From positions 1-64,000 of the forward strand of contig JAGVKG010000058.1 in the NCBI GenBank assembly GCA_020050685.1: 64,000 nt of DNA, written 5' to 3'. Source of the stretch: Candidatus Obscuribacterales bacterium (GTDB lineage: Bacteria; Cyanobacteriota; Vampirovibrionia; Obscuribacterales; Obscuribacteraceae). Made by a program: the position numbers and the translations under genes. Shown piece after piece: positions 14,544-20,767 of this stretch. Numbering within the stretch: the stretch's first letter is position 1; every line of letters begins with the position of its first letter. The notes under the pieces were generated by a model. It saw only the letters and a list, made by a program, of their open reading frames with translations. It was not told the DNA's origin and did not search any database.

Positions 14544-14936
14544 ATGTATCAATTTCAAGTCGCCCAAATCGTATTGTTCGTACTGATGGGGTTTGCTTTA
14601 CCTGCACTCGGCATGATTCTCCTTGCCTGGGTTTTGCAAAGCCTCTTTGGTTTTCACAGACCAAATCCAATTAAGAATATGCCTTACGAGTGCGGCATGA
14701 AACCGCTGCAAGAAGCGCACGTACAATTTGACATACGTTACTACCTTTACGCGCTTCTCTTCATCGTCTTTGATATAGAAATTGTTTTCTTGGTTCCCTG
14801 GGCTCTTACCACCAATTACATAAAACAACAATTCCAAACTCCGTGGTTGAGTCCAATTGAAATTAGCATTTTCATTGCCATTCTGGCGGTCGGCTTGGCT
14901 TATGCCTGGAAGAAGGGAGCCTTGAAGTGGGAGTAA
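14544..14936 (+). CDS. nuoA: NADH dehydrogenase subunit A (NuoA/NdhC)
   Basis: A 130-residue inner-membrane subunit of complex I with three membrane helices (about 8-33, 70-95 and 103-123). Diagnostic features are MPYECGMKP, with the loop cysteine, and [22 protein letters not shown]. It is the first gene of a plus-strand operon with nuoB, C, D, H, I, J and K and a TPR gene. Its stop lies 2 bases before the nuoB start. Confidence 0.96.
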
Positions 14937-14938
14937 AT

Positions 14939-15634
14939 ATGAGCAACGAAACTATGAGCAATGCAGTTCCCCAAGAACTAAAAGACACCATCACGTTGAC
15001 GACTGTCGACAGGGCTGTCGAACTTTTGAGCACAATTGTTGATCCGGTGGCAAACTGGGCGCGTTCCAATTCAGTTTGGCCGCTCACCTTCGGCACATCG
15101 TGCTGTGCAATTGAAATGATGTGCGTTGGTATGTCGGCCTTCGACATATCGCGTTTTGGTTCGGAAGTATTTCGTGGCACACCACGTCAGGCTGACCTGA
15201 TCATTACCGCCGGCACCATCACGCGCAAAATGGCACCGGCGCTGATCACACTTTACGAACAAATGCCAGAGCCCAAGTACGTGATTGCTATGGGTGCCTG
15301 CACTGTGACCGGTGGCATGTTCAACGATTCTTATTCTGTCGTGCAAGGTGTCGACCGGATTATTCCAGTCGATGTTTATTTGCCTGGTTGCCCACCAAGA
15401 CCGGAAGCGATTCTTGACGCGTTGATCAAACTGCAACAAAAGATCCGCACCGAGTCTTACGTCGAGCGCCGCAAGCGTACGTATAATCAGCGCGCTGTGC
15501 GTTATGTCGATTACGACACAGGACGCCCGGTGGAAGATCTGGTCGACGAAGCCAGTGAAGCGACAAGTCTAGAGTTGGCGAAAATGAAAAACGATCCACA
15601 AGCAATTGATGAAGCCGGCGAAAAGACGGTCTAG
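14939..15634 (+). CDS. nuoB: NADH dehydrogenase subunit B (NuoB/NdhK)
   Basis: 231 residues from the ATG at 14939, with GGGAG 5 bases upstream; a GTG 12 bases earlier is less likely. It carries the terminal 4Fe-4S cluster N2 that passes electrons to quinone. The cysteines are seen in [17 protein letters not shown] and PGCPPRPE. The C-terminal about 60 residues after the core are charged and extend beyond the E. coli protein. It acts in the hydrophilic arm at the junction with the membrane arm. Confidence 0.96.
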
Positions 15635-15695
15635 AAGTTGCAGAATGAATCAATCAGTCTAATAAGTGAATTGTCCGAAGGAAGTCAAAAAAATC

Positions 15696-16259
15696 ATGAC
15701 AGACGAAGCAAAACCACAACCAACACCAAGTCCCGCACCAGCAAAAGCAGAGCCAACACCTCTGGAAATCGGACGCTACGGCAAAATCTTGCAAGCCAAT
15801 GGCATCGCCTCAAAGCGCTTACCTGATTCTTGCGGTGTCGAAACTGTAGAAATTGATGCAAAGGATTTGCAAAAGGCCGCCAAGACCTTGCGCGACAATC
15901 AAGAAGTAAAATTGAATTTGCTCAATTGCTTGGCCGGTGTAGATAACCTCGAGACTTTTGATTCTGTCTATCACCTTTGGTCTTACGAAAATACCAATGA
16001 ATTTGTCATGAAGGTATCAATACCGAAAACGCAAGTTGCTGAAGGCAAATTGCCGGATGTACCAAGCTTGGTACCAATTTGGAATGCAGCCAATTGGCAC
16101 GAGCGCGAGTCTTACGATTTGGTTGGTATCAACTATGTTGGCCATCCATACATGAGAAGAATACTCAACCCTTGGGATTGGGAAGGTCATCCACTCAGGC
16201 GTGATTACAAACAGCCAGTTGACGCTCTCAACGACAAGAACCCACACAGCATGCGCTAA
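15696..16259 (+). CDS. nuoC: NADH dehydrogenase subunit C (NuoC/NdhJ)
   Basis: 187 residues from the ATG at 15696; AAGGA lies about 13 bases upstream, a long spacing, and a GTG at 15666 is possible. The core 30-kDa subunit domain ends with the family signature [20 protein letters not shown] followed by [14 protein letters not shown]. The first 25 residues are Pro/Ala/Lys-rich and probably disordered. NuoC and NuoD are separate genes here, not fused as in E. coli. Confidence 0.95.
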
Positions 16260-16274
16260 TACAGGAAATTTCAG

Positions 16275-17495
16275 ATGGCAATCGATACAGCCGGTCTCAC
16301 ATCAGACGACCTAAAAACAGAAGAGATGGTAATCAACATGGGTCCACAGCACCCAGCCACCCACGGTGTGCTGCGTTTGCTTTTGACTCTTGATGGTGAA
16401 TATGTCACTCACGTTGAACCAGTGATTGGTCACTTGCACCGAGCCCAAGAATGGCAAGGACAAAATCGCACTTGGTTTCAATACCAAGCATTGATCGACC
16501 GAGTTGATTACTTGTCCGGCATGTTCACATCGTGGGCATTGTCTCGTGCAGCAGAAACAATCGACGAGTGTCACGTTCCTGAACGTGCAGAATACATGCG
16601 CGTGATAGTCGCTGAGATGAATCGTATTACTTCGCACTTGCTCTGGTTGGGCACATACCTGATCGACTTGGGCGCGATGTTTGGTTTCCCATTCTATCCA
16701 TTCCGCGAACGCGAAAAGCTGTTGGATTTATTCGAAGCAATTGCTGGCCAACGCATGATGTTCAATTACATCCGCATTGGTGGTGTACAGCGCGAAGCAC
16801 CGTTTGGTTGGTTCGCCAAGTTGAAAGCATTTACGGAAGAATTTCCCGATCGCATTGATGAATACGAAGCAATTGTCACGCAAAACCCCATCTTCTTAAA
16901 GCGCACCAAAGGCGTTGGTATTTTGAAGAAATCAGTGGCCATGGACTATGGCGTTACTGGTCCATGCATTCGCGCCTCTGGTATCAATATGGATTTGCGC
17001 CGCTTCAAACCATATTCTGTTTATCCCAAACTAAAATTTGAAGTACCAGTAATTGAAGGCGATGGCGACACCTGGGCACGTTACATGTGCCGCATTCAGG
17101 AAATGCGCCAATCGAACGAAATCATCAAGCAGTGTCTCGATCAAATTACTGGCGGTTGGCCGGAAGAATTGGCTGAGCGCCGCAAATCTTGTAATTCCTG
17201 CGGTAAAGAAGATTGCGCCAATTGTGGCGGCGATCTAAAGATCATGGCTAAGAAACAAAACGCCGGCTTGCGTGTAAAAGCTGGCGAAGCCTTTGCAGCT
17301 GTGGAATCACCGCGCGGAACTCTTGGTTGCTATGTCATTTCCAACGGATCTGACAAGGCTTTCCGTTTCAAATGGCGCAACCCATCATTCTGCAACCTTT
17401 CAGTTTTGCATGAATTGTTGGTCGGTCATCCAATTGCCGACATCATGGCAATATTTGGATCAATAGATGTGATTTTGCCGGACGTGGACAGATAA
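16275..17495 (+). CDS. nuoD: NADH dehydrogenase subunit D (NuoD/NdhH) with extra cysteine cluster
   Basis: A 406-residue, 49-kDa-type subunit that forms the quinone pocket with NuoB. The motifs MGPQHPATHG, IGHLHR, RVDYLSGM, GVTGP, YSVYPKLKFEVP and the C-terminal GSIDVILPDVDR are present. Between the core and the last domain the usual spacer is replaced by a stretch containing C306, C309, C314 and C317 (CX2CX4CX2C). This is a likely zinc or iron-sulfur site that the standard subunit does not have. Otherwise the length is normal and the frame intact. Confidence 0.95.
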   Translation: MAIDTAGLTSDDLKTEEMVINMGPQHPATHGVLRLLLTLDGEYVTHVEPVIGHLHRAQEWQGQNRTWFQYQALIDRVDYLSGMFTSWALSRAAETIDECHVPERAEYMRVIVAEMNRITSHLLWLGTYLIDLGAMFGFPFYPFREREKLLDLFEAIAGQRMMFNYIRIGGVQREAPFGWFAKLKAFTEEFPDRIDEYEAIVTQNPIFLKRTKGVGILKKSVAMDYGVTGPCIRASGINMDLRRFKPYSVYPKLKFEVPVIEGDGDTWARYMCRIQEMRQSNEIIKQCLDQITGGWPEELAERRKSCNSCGKEDCANCGGDLKIMAKKQNAGLRVKAGEAFAAVESPRGTLGCYVISNGSDKAFRFKWRNPSFCNLSVLHELLVGHPIADIMAIFGSIDVILPDVDR

Positions 17496-17514: not shown

Positions 17515-18897
17515 GTGAGTACAACGACAATGACTTCAAGCACCATTACCCGTGAGATTCCAAAACCGGGAATCAATTTCCAGCTTTACGAGCTTGGCAA
17601 ATTTATTCGCCTCAGTTTGACTTGGTTGACCATCATATTTGGTGCCGTATGGATTGCTTCCTGGTTGGTTGGTGTTTTGTTACCAGCAGCAATTGAGCAA
17701 TTCATGCAAGGTGACAACGCCCACTTTATTGGCAATGTCTTACGCGCCCTCACACCAATTGTTTCCGTCATGGTCTTTATTCCCATTAATGCCATGTTCA
17801 TGGTGCTCTGCGAGCGCCGTGCTCTTGCGCTTTTCACAGTACGTAAAGGACCAAACCGCGTCGGTCCGGATGGCTATCTGCAAACGGCCGCTGACGCCGT
17901 CAAACTCCTCTTTAAAGAAGACATTACGCCTCACGGCGCCGATGCGATTATGTTTACGCTTGCACCAATTATCTTCTTTGCCCCATCTATATTTGGTGCG
18001 CTGCCACTTTTAGCAGCAGTCACTGCCGATCATCCGCTTTATTCATTTGTGAATTTGCCTACCGGTATCTTCTATGTATTAGCCATGTCTTCCATTCCAG
18101 TAGTCGGATTGGTCATGGGTTCATGGGCATCTAATAATAAGTACTCGCTGGTCGGTGGACTACGCTCTGCTGCACAAGCAGTTTCCTATGAAATTCCCCT
18201 TGTGCTTTCCATCATCACCGTTTGCTTTATGGCCGGTTCACTTGATGTCGTGCAAATTGCCCGTCAACAAGCCGGCGGACTTTTAAACTGGAACGTCTTT
18301 GGTGGTGGTGCTCTCACGCATGCTAACCTCGGCTCCATCACTTCAATTGTTGCAGCTCTGATCATGTCGCTTTCCTGCGTCATACTATTTTGCATGTACT
18401 TGATAGCTGCTTGCGCAGAAGTTAATCGCATCCCGTTTGACTTGCCGGAAGCAGAAAGCGAACTGGTCTCCGGTTACAACACGGAATACAGTGGCATCAA
18501 GTTTGCCATTTTCTTCTTGGCTGAATTTACAAACCTATTTATTGTCTCAACAGTTGCCACCGTCATGTTCTTAGGTTGCGGTGCAGCACCACTACCAATA
18601 TTGGATGAAGTCATGGTTGGTACAGTCACAAGCCTCCTGGCTTGGGCGCAAAACAATCTTGGTGCCAACTTCGGTCAATTGGGTTGGTTGATCAATTCGC
18701 TGATTAATCCGACCACTTTTGTTGCAGCCCTCTGGGTGATTCTCAAAGTTTATTCGTTGGTTGTTTTTGCCATCTTAGTTCGCGGCACTCTGCCAAGATT
18801 CCGCATTGATCAATTGATGGATTTTGGCTGGAAGCGACTAATTCCATTGTCGCTGATCTTATTGATTGCAATTACTTTTCTCAAGGAGCTTGTATAA
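17515..18897 (+). CDS. nuoH: NADH dehydrogenase subunit H (NuoH/NdhA)
   Basis: A 460-residue membrane subunit with about eight to nine helices that links the quinone site to proton pumping. Diagnostic segments are RKGPNRVGPDGYLQTAADAV, LFKEDITPHGAD and EVNRIPFDLPEAESELVSGY. It is longer than the E. coli protein (325 residues). The surplus lies in an extended N-terminus with an additional hydrophobic helix and in two loops (about 255-290 and 360-400). The start may be the GTG at 17515 or the ATG at 17530; neither has a clear ribosome site. Confidence 0.94.
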   Translation: MSTTTMTSSTITREIPKPGINFQLYELGKFIRLSLTWLTIIFGAVWIASWLVGVLLPAAIEQFMQGDNAHFIGNVLRALTPIVSVMVFIPINAMFMVLCERRALALFTVRKGPNRVGPDGYLQTAADAVKLLFKEDITPHGADAIMFTLAPIIFFAPSIFGALPLLAAVTADHPLYSFVNLPTGIFYVLAMSSIPVVGLVMGSWASNNKYSLVGGLRSAAQAVSYEIPLVLSIITVCFMAGSLDVVQIARQQAGGLLNWNVFGGGALTHANLGSITSIVAALIMSLSCVILFCMYLIAACAEVNRIPFDLPEAESELVSGYNTEYSGIKFAIFFLAEFTNLFIVSTVATVMFLGCGAAPLPILDEVMVGTVTSLLAWAQNNLGANFGQLGWLINSLINPTTFVAALWVILKVYSLVVFAILVRGTLPRFRIDQLMDFGWKRLIPLSLILLIAITFLKELV

Positions 18898-18900
18898 GCA

Positions 18901-19602
18901 ATGATGGGTATCGTCGGTCGTGCCGTTGAAGGCCTTTATCAGGTAATGCGTGGACTAACCACTGTGGGAAAACACACAGTGCGGGAGCCAATTACAAAAG
19001 AATACCCGGACCTTGTGTCGGATCTACCAGCACACTTCCGTGGCAGATTGGCCCTGACAGTCAATCCGGAAACGGGCGAGCATCTGTGTATTTCTTGCCG
19101 TCAATGCGAGCGTGTCTGCCCAGACAAATGTATTGAGATTACGGCACACAAATCACCGGAGACTAATAAGCTTGAACTGATTGATTTCAAAATCGATCAC
19201 GGGCTTTGCATGTTCTGCGGACTTTGCACGGAAGTTTGCCCGACAAGCTGCATCATCAATACAAATGATTTTGAGATGGCAGATTACACCCGCGCATCCC
19301 TTATATATGATCTGAAACGTCTGACTTTGACACAAGACGAATCAGACTACTACTTCTCCAAAAAAGAATTGCCGTTGCCAAAACCAAAACCGGTCAAGGC
19401 TCCGGCACCAGCGGCAGCCGCAGCAAAGCCCGCGGCCCCAGCCGGTGATGCCAAGCCACAAGCAGCTGCTGCACCAAAAGCACCGGCAGCCGAAGCAGCA
19501 CCTGCTCCCGAAGCAAAGGCAGCACCAGCCAAGGCGGAAGAAAAGCCAGCCGCTGATGCACCAGAAAAATCCCCAAATGGTCAAGACAAGAAGGATAGCT
19601 AA
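18901..19602 (+). CDS. nuoI: NADH dehydrogenase subunit I (NuoI/NdhI) with Ala/Pro-rich tail
   Basis: A 233-residue, 8Fe ferredoxin-type subunit with two 4Fe-4S motifs, CISCRQCERVCP (from about residue 63) and CMFCGLCTEVCP (from about 103). These pass electrons towards NuoB. The folded part ends near residue 160. About 70 further residues made almost only of Ala, Pro, Lys and Glu follow, which the standard protein lacks. The tail is in frame and has the same codon style as its neighbours. The start lies 3 bases after the nuoH stop. Confidence 0.94.
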   Translation: MMGIVGRAVEGLYQVMRGLTTVGKHTVREPITKEYPDLVSDLPAHFRGRLALTVNPETGEHLCISCRQCERVCPDKCIEITAHKSPETNKLELIDFKIDHGLCMFCGLCTEVCPTSCIINTNDFEMADYTRASLIYDLKRLTLTQDESDYYFSKKELPLPKPKPVKAPAPAAAAAKPAAPAGDAKPQAAAAPKAPAAEAAPAPEAKAAPAKAEEKPAADAPEKSPNGQDKKDS

Positions 19603-19605
19603 CCA

Positions 19606-20184
19606 ATGGAAAATATCATTAGCTTTTCGCAAGCAACTGTAGAGCCAATCATGTTTTATGCATTGGTACTCTTGATGGTACCGCTTGCCTTTGGTGTGAT
19701 CTTTGACAGATCAATTATCCGAGCCGGTTTCATCCTGATCGGAGTCTTCGGCACCATATCAGGCATCTTCCTTTTGCTGCAAGCACAATTTCTTGCCATG
19801 GCGCAAATCATGATTTATGCAGTCGGCATAACTCTGGTTGTCGTAATTGCCTTGATGTTAACCAATCCAACACTTGACGAGGACAGGGCACCGACACAAG
19901 CCGCCAATCGGCTTCCCGGATTTCTCATTGCTCTTCTCGTATTTGCCACCATATTTCTAGCCATTAGATCTGAGCTATGGCCAATGGCTCCGGAACTTAT
20001 TCAAAGCGATCCGACAAAAGCAATCGGCTACTTCCTGCTCACCTTCTATTCCTTGCCATTTGAATTTTCTTCAATTTTGCTTTTGGCTGCTTTAATTGGC
20101 TCGGTGATGCTGGCTAAATCAGACAGAGCACCAATGAAAACCGAAAAGGGAAATGCCAAAGCCCTGGCAAAATCCACTCGCTAA
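19606..20184 (+). CDS. nuoJ: NADH dehydrogenase subunit J (NuoJ/NdhG)
   Basis: A 192-residue membrane subunit with five predicted helices. The first three (FYALVLLMVPLAFGVIF, SIIRAGFILIGVFGTISG and AQFLAMAQIMIYAVGI) match the conserved NuoJ core, including the helix with the MIYAVG bulge. The C-terminus is a short Lys-rich tail. It starts 3 bases after nuoI. Confidence 0.92.
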   Translation: MENIISFSQATVEPIMFYALVLLMVPLAFGVIFDRSIIRAGFILIGVFGTISGIFLLLQAQFLAMAQIMIYAVGITLVVVIALMLTNPTLDEDRAPTQAANRLPGFLIALLVFATIFLAIRSELWPMAPELIQSDPTKAIGYFLLTFYSLPFEFSSILLLAALIGSVMLAKSDRAPMKTEKGNAKALAKSTR

Positions 20185-20212
20185 ATTCTCAGACTGAACA
20201 CAGGTAAAAATC

Positions 20213-20767
20213 ATGCTTTCCAAACCGCTTGCCTTTTCATTTGCTTACATAATTTGCGCAATAATTGTGACGACGCTTTATGCAATCGGCGTTGTCGGCG
20301 ACACAATCATGCAGGCTGGATTCAATCCGGAAATGGCAGGGCTGTTTACAGCTTCTGCTCTATTTGCTCTTGGTGCTCTTGCCGCGATTTGCGGTGGTCA
20401 CGGTAAGACAATTGCCGTTGCCGGAATAGCCTTGGCATTTTGTGTACTAGTGGCACACGAGCAACCACTCGTGCGATACATGACTTTGTCTGCCCTATTA
20501 TTCTCAATTGGTATGTACGGTATGGTTGTTTCACGCAATGCCGTTCGTATGCTCATGTCGATTGAATTGATGCTCAACGCCGTCAACATCAACATGGTGG
20601 CACTGGCCAGATACATTGATCCAATTGCCGTGCGTGGACAACTTTTCGCCATCTTCATTTTGACAGTGGCAGCGGCTGAGGCTGCAGTCGGCTTGGCTAT
20701 CGTGCTTGCTATTTATCGCAACAACGCCAGCATTGACATGGAAAAGTTCAACACGCTTAAGTGGTAG
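20213..20767 (+). CDS. nuoK: NADH dehydrogenase subunit K (NuoK/NdhE) with N-terminal extension
   Basis: 184 residues, where NuoK is usually about 100. The canonical subunit begins near residue 90 (LSALLFSIGMYGMVVSRNAV) and continues through LMSIELMLNAVNINMVAL, with the conserved Glu in helix 2. The preceding about 89 residues hold three extra hydrophobic segments. No ribosome site precedes the internal ATG at 20480, so the long form is favoured. It is the last nuo gene here; nuoL, M and N do not follow. Confidence 0.9.
   Translation: MLSKPLAFSFAYIICAIIVTTLYAIGVVGDTIMQAGFNPEMAGLFTASALFALGALAAICGGHGKTIAVAGIALAFCVLVAHEQPLVRYMTLSALLFSIGMYGMVVSRNAVRMLMSIELMLNAVNINMVALARYIDPIAVRGQLFAIFILTVAAAEAAVGLAIVLAIYRNNASIDMEKFNTLKW

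Follow-up and report, generated by a model that had tools for sequence, protein, structure and literature searches.

A four-cysteine block beside the putative electron-donor dock of complex I subunit NuoD in Candidatus Obscuribacterales

The complex I subunit NuoD of a Candidatus Obscuribacterales bacterium carries a tetracysteine block with the spacing CX2CX4CX2C, and this represents a lineage-specific new form of a well-known subunit. The block was examined in a stretch of 64,000 nucleotides, hereafter the window (assembly GCA_020050685.1, contig JAGVKG010000058.1, positions 1 to 64,000 of the forward strand). As judged from the sequences compared, the motif is a real, clade-specific feature of metal type that is kept by selection, and the block is the sequence neighbour of the predicted dock for the electron donor, a placement that is the useful new point. 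With little better than even confidence, we regard the four cysteines as a short tetrathiolate site, most likely for one structural zinc, that stiffens the donor-docking edge of the complex.

The nuoD gene (16275 to 17495, forward strand) encodes an NdhH-type complex I subunit of 406 aa in an intact reading frame, and its product matched PF00346 at 3.9e-92 over residues 131-406 in a Pfam search, with 6hum_H as the best PDB sequence match. The gene order in the window is nuoA-B-C-D-H-I-J-K, all on the forward strand, with nuoA, nuoB, and nuoC at 14544 to 16259, nuoH at 17515 to 18897, nuoI at 18901 to 19602, and nuoJ and nuoK at 19606 to 20767; nuoA, nuoB, and nuoC are conserved neighbours in related loci. 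Apart from NuoD and NuoI, the names were given by order and, for the first three genes, also by signatures, by which these are presumably nuoA, nuoB, and nuoC. NuoD contains ten cysteines in total, and its only CxxC pairs are those at 306/309 and 314/317. These four cysteines, pointed out by a first-pass annotation, are real: C306 (codon 17190-17192), C309 (17199-17201), C314 (17214-17216), and C317 (17223-17225) form CNSCGKEDCANC (17190 to 17225, forward strand). The annotation was also right that cysteine is absent from the same stretch of the Thermus and cyanobacterial subunits, as indicated by alignment, and of E. coli K-12 NuoCD, in which the nearest cysteine, C480, lies ahead of the spacer; the aligned chloroplast subunits likewise have none there. 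Misassembly, which it had discounted, is excluded by the presence of the block in 9 independent genomes.

A NuoD was collected at E <= 1e-60 from 50 of the 53 genomes of the order, the three genomes without it being 65-77% complete. The block, with the consensus CxxCGKx[D/N]CxxCGGDL, was present in an all-or-none manner in 9 of these 50 NuoD, the nine carriers spanning 7 genera and each having the full set, and no spacer cysteine was found in the 72 other NuoD of the class that were examined (0/72) or, taken by themselves, in the 31 examined from its other families. When genomes of the class were scanned with a DNA pattern for CxxCGKxxCxxCGG, matches occurred in 9 of 382, all Obscuribacterales, as a single copy in each and always in nuoD, and the backwards pattern used as a control gave 0 among the matches listed; the occurrence of the pattern in nuoD is beyond chance. 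A stricter, related pattern gave the nuoD of the window and one cyanobacterial match among 386 genomes of the phylum, and the latter was dismissed as it sits in a 47-residue open stretch outside ndhH. Conservation in close relatives, which the first-pass annotation would have counted against its proposal if poor, proved to be mixed: ranked by search score, the best 7 of the 50 NuoD, that of the window included, have the block, and the following four lack it.

Among 19 more distant named NuoD, the spacer is mostly short and no CxxC pair was found in it, single cysteines being present in the spacer of L135, L136, and L149 and right at the spacer end of L151. In L135 and L136, which are Sericytochromatia NuoD, the short spacer reads PxGPCLKKK, with the lone cysteine immediately ahead of the basic docking strip. 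A literature search, mostly outside the subscription papers, found no title or abstract opening on a cysteine cluster in NuoD or NdhH, and searching for cysteine or zinc in this subunit listed no tetracysteine NuoD of an 11-subunit complex I; to our knowledge, no such NuoD has been described in complexes without NuoEFG.

The NuoD of the nine carriers are 71-99% identical, and all four cysteines are invariant in 9/9. Of the 32 spacer positions (294-325), 13 are invariant among carriers, namely G294, L299, R303, and ten within C306-L321 that include every cysteine, the glycine after each pair, K311, D320, and L321. Any 4 of the 32 positions drawn would all be invariant at p = 0.02, which is a rough value as the cysteines were picked after looking. 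Each of the four cysteine codons occurs as both TGC and TGT among carriers; therefore, it is the protein and not the DNA that is conserved, and selection holds the residues.

The block lies in a length-variable spacer (residues 294-325; 17154 to 17249, forward strand) that links a long helix (266-290) to the domain at the C-terminus. Counted from G293, the spacer is 33 residues long in 9/9 carriers and also exactly 33, without cysteine, in 10 of the 31 outgroup NuoD of the class. Six close relatives have a long spacer without cysteine (five of 32 residues and one of 24), and in 35 of the 50 Obscuribacterales NuoD the spacer is nearly deleted, down to 6-8 residues, the range across the class being 6 to 62. 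Its opening, GGxTExL, is common to Obscuribacterales and the outgroup families, and cyanobacterial NdhH has GGPYENL. The block had been described as a true insertion, which is not borne out by the ten outgroups with a 33-residue cysteine-less spacer and the five close relatives with one of 32. Because the same-length cysteine-less spacer is found in outgroups, we argue that the cysteines arose inside a pre-existing spacer. Regrowth of the spacer from a short form may be an alternative, because the tree does not settle the base of the order and the spacer is short in the majority of distant bacteria. In the NuoD tree, for which 63 of 81 NuoD rows were used and the spacer columns were left out, the 15 long-spacer sequences of the order form one clade (99/97), and a single spacer loss in the other 35 was not rejected (lnL difference 0.24, p-AU 0.485). 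The block, placed as a label on this tree, needs three changes, with L015, a carrier on a long branch, being placed among cysteine-less sequences, and a constraint of the nine carriers as a clade was not rejected (p-AU 0.073). One gain with one or two losses and two gains both fit the history of the block.

The position of the block relative to the dock is given by alignment with NdhH of the Thermosynechococcus NDH-1L, in the ferredoxin-bound structure of which NdhH Lys315 and Lys321 contact ferredoxin (PMC7021789). K327 (17253 to 17255, forward strand) aligns with Lys315 and R333 (17271 to 17273, forward strand) with Lys321, so that basic residues for ferredoxin contact are present in NuoD; they are located 10 and 16 residues past C317, and the segment from C317 to R333 aligns gap-free with NdhH, the numbering of which was verified via M22 and H23 (PMC6992706). 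Position 327 is K and position 333 is R in 50/50 NuoD of the order, the latter being K in 31/31 others of the class, and both residues are kept even in the 35 relatives without nearly all of the spacer. PMC6992706 describes the basic ferredoxin patch as composed of NdhI and a C-terminal fragment of NdhH. A tie of the block to the quinone site, proposed earlier, is not supported, as the block abuts the residues aligned with these ferredoxin-contacting lysines (PMC7021789). The quinone-site residues themselves, NdhH H23, Y72, and D124, the roles of which are taken from PMC6992706, are matched by H30 and Y79, both invariant, and by D131, kept in at least 90% of 57 aligned sequences.

The genome of the window is 98.7% complete, and no match to the NuoF domain (PF01512) or the NuoG 4Fe-4S domain (PF10588) was found in it. 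The NuoF domain was not found in 42 of the 53 genomes of the order, and its presence in 1/9 carriers versus 10/44 others gave no sign of a link with the block across the 53 genomes. NdhS was found in 0/53 genomes, with a positive Synechococcus control. PF00361, the domain of antiporter-type subunits, had five matches on three contigs elsewhere in the genome. Melainabacteria with a partial complex I lacking NuoEFG have already been described (PMC6349859). With no NuoF or NuoG domain found and the basic contacts present, the complex would be of the ferredoxin-type, NuoEFG-less kind, for which ferredoxin is a putative donor. A plant-type 2Fe-2S ferredoxin was not found in the genome, and its two Fer2 matches belong to longer ORFs (233 aa and 508 aa), which we take to resemble molybdenum-hydroxylase subunits. 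The genome also encodes, on another contig, C55, a stand-alone 116-aa ORF (L175) that matches the NuoE family, i.e., the 2Fe-2S thioredoxin-like family of NuoE type, and is a candidate small electron carrier.

NuoI in the order has a long low-complexity tail rich in Ala, Pro, Lys, and Glu after a PKPK segment (residues ~155-233 in the window), and tail length differs greatly between relatives (13 named relatives listed, with equivalents in L082-L137). The NuoI ORF of L088 (from about 10652) is a 531-residue open frame. Its tail closes with an acidic unit, GGIM-x-VSD-x-EMD-x-LFDNVL, in four near-repeats that resemble a tandem short binding motif. The NuoD open frame of L102, with 461 residues, exceeds those of relatives.

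Turning to the function of the block, CxxCG occurring twice is a knuckle of the zinc-ribbon and rubredoxin type. The first-pass suggestion of a bound zinc or an additional Fe-S cluster was a fair guess in view of this CxxCG-like spacing and of conservation as a block of four in 9/50; both the presence and the kind of metal are inferred here, as are the partner that docks and the role in stiffening. In the structural-zinc reading, the two knuckles, with four residues between C309 and C314, would fold the loop around one zinc ion, and the zinc-held loop would act as a rigid clip fixing the K326-K327...R333-K335 strip, which aligns with the ferredoxin-contact strip of cyanobacterial NdhH (PMC7021789). 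The strip is kept in all 35 spacer-poor relatives, which argues that such a clip would tune docking rather than make it. Spacer net charge is -2 to -4 in the cysteine-less relatives and -1 to +2 in carriers; the more acidic cysteine-less spacers hint that the clip may alter the contact of the edge with an acidic partner. The site is dispensable, since 6 close relatives have the cysteine-less spacer and 35 lack nearly all of it. Searched alone against Pfam zinc fingers, the spacer gave RIM2a_ZnF at 0.006 and FYVE at 0.0062, both below the cut-off, and a PDB sequence search with it found no true relative (best E 0.49). AlphaFold2 gave the cysteine stretch no regular structure, with confidence in the middle range (means of 73 and 76 over ten residues each), and the cysteine-less control spacer of L085 (its 291-320) had means of 89, 81, and 72; the comparison showed no difference bearing on the metal question, the confidence of the carrier being no better.

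Among other explanations, it is conceivable, though improbable, that a metal-held loop anchors a clade-specific electron-donor module or assembly factor. Cyanobacteria have the extra subunits NdhS, NdhV, and NdhO at the same edge (PMC7021789), and the lack of NdhS in the order leaves room for a partner; however, no carrier-only gene was found in the comparison, which covered the nuo genes. We consider it slightly less probable that the four cysteines are ligands of iron, either a rubredoxin-like Fe or in an Fe-S cluster, that relays donor electrons to N6a of NuoI. Two CxxCG knuckles are also common to rubredoxin, and the loop adjoins the docking strip in the alignment (PMC7021789), but a relay would be unneeded where the cluster of ferredoxin is already 9.6 A from N6a, as in Fd-NDH-1 (PMC6992706). 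Moreover, the block is lost or missing in close relatives, and the cluster motifs of NuoI, which in the window are two 4Fe-4S motifs, are intact whether or not the block is present; no co-variation of NuoI or NuoB with the block was seen among the sequences listed. That a redox-active iron centre at the dock serves this NuoEFG-less complex I, either as an extra site of electron entry or as a sensor for the donor of this clade, is more doubtful still; if true, the centre would sit in a subunit otherwise without any. As doubtful as the relay is a thiol switch, in which reversible disulfides would open and close the docking loop according to the redox state of the cell: the cysteine pairs are near the ferredoxin dock and their presence is clade-specific, but four cysteines occurring as a set, with glycine after each pair, look like metal knuckles and unlike a single regulatory pair. 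Neutral drift in a hypervariable and frequently lost loop, with conservation through short shared history alone, is very improbable given that all carriers keep the four cysteines across their genera with synonymous codon changes while neighbouring positions vary.

A metal-type site that is present in some relatives and missing from others, and that directly adjoins the strip of donor contacts, indicates the place in which to seek electron entry into the NuoEFG-less complex I of the non-photosynthetic sisters of cyanobacteria, and the relatives with cysteines, without cysteines, and without the spacer represent a natural comparison set.

With respect to known systems, the FYVE zinc finger includes the CX2CX4CX2C spacing and needs eight ligands for two zinc ions; FYVE identity was ruled out by the presence of just four cysteines in the NuoD block and by the match below the Pfam cut-off. 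The large subunit of group 4 NiFe hydrogenases binds NiFe through CxxC pairs near both of its termini, and it was ruled out since NuoD has no cysteine before residue 99 or after residue 373. The 4Fe-4S ferredoxin motif is CxxCxxCxxxC, which differs from the spacing in NuoD and was likewise rejected. The block is like a zinc-ribbon or rubredoxin knuckle in its two CxxCG pairs, with weak matches to zinc-finger models, but it has just 4 residues between the pairs, no surrounding hairpin domain, and no PDB sequence homolog. The complex resembles the 11-subunit complex I without NuoEFG of Melainabacteria and others (PMC6349859), the NuoF and NuoG domains not being found here. The closest solved subunits are the cyanobacterial and chloroplast NdhH (6hum, 6khi, and 6l7o; 6hum_H at E 9.4e-108), and the fold of NuoD matches that of NdhH 6nbq_H with a TM of 0.85 in Foldseek. 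NdhH differs in having a spacer without cysteine and in belonging to an NDH-1 complex with NdhS, the lack of which in the order sets the present complex apart from cyanobacterial NDH-1, but it is like the NuoD of the window in having a spacer of similar length that opens with GGxxExL and ferredoxin-contact lysines that align with the basic residues past the block (PMC7021789).
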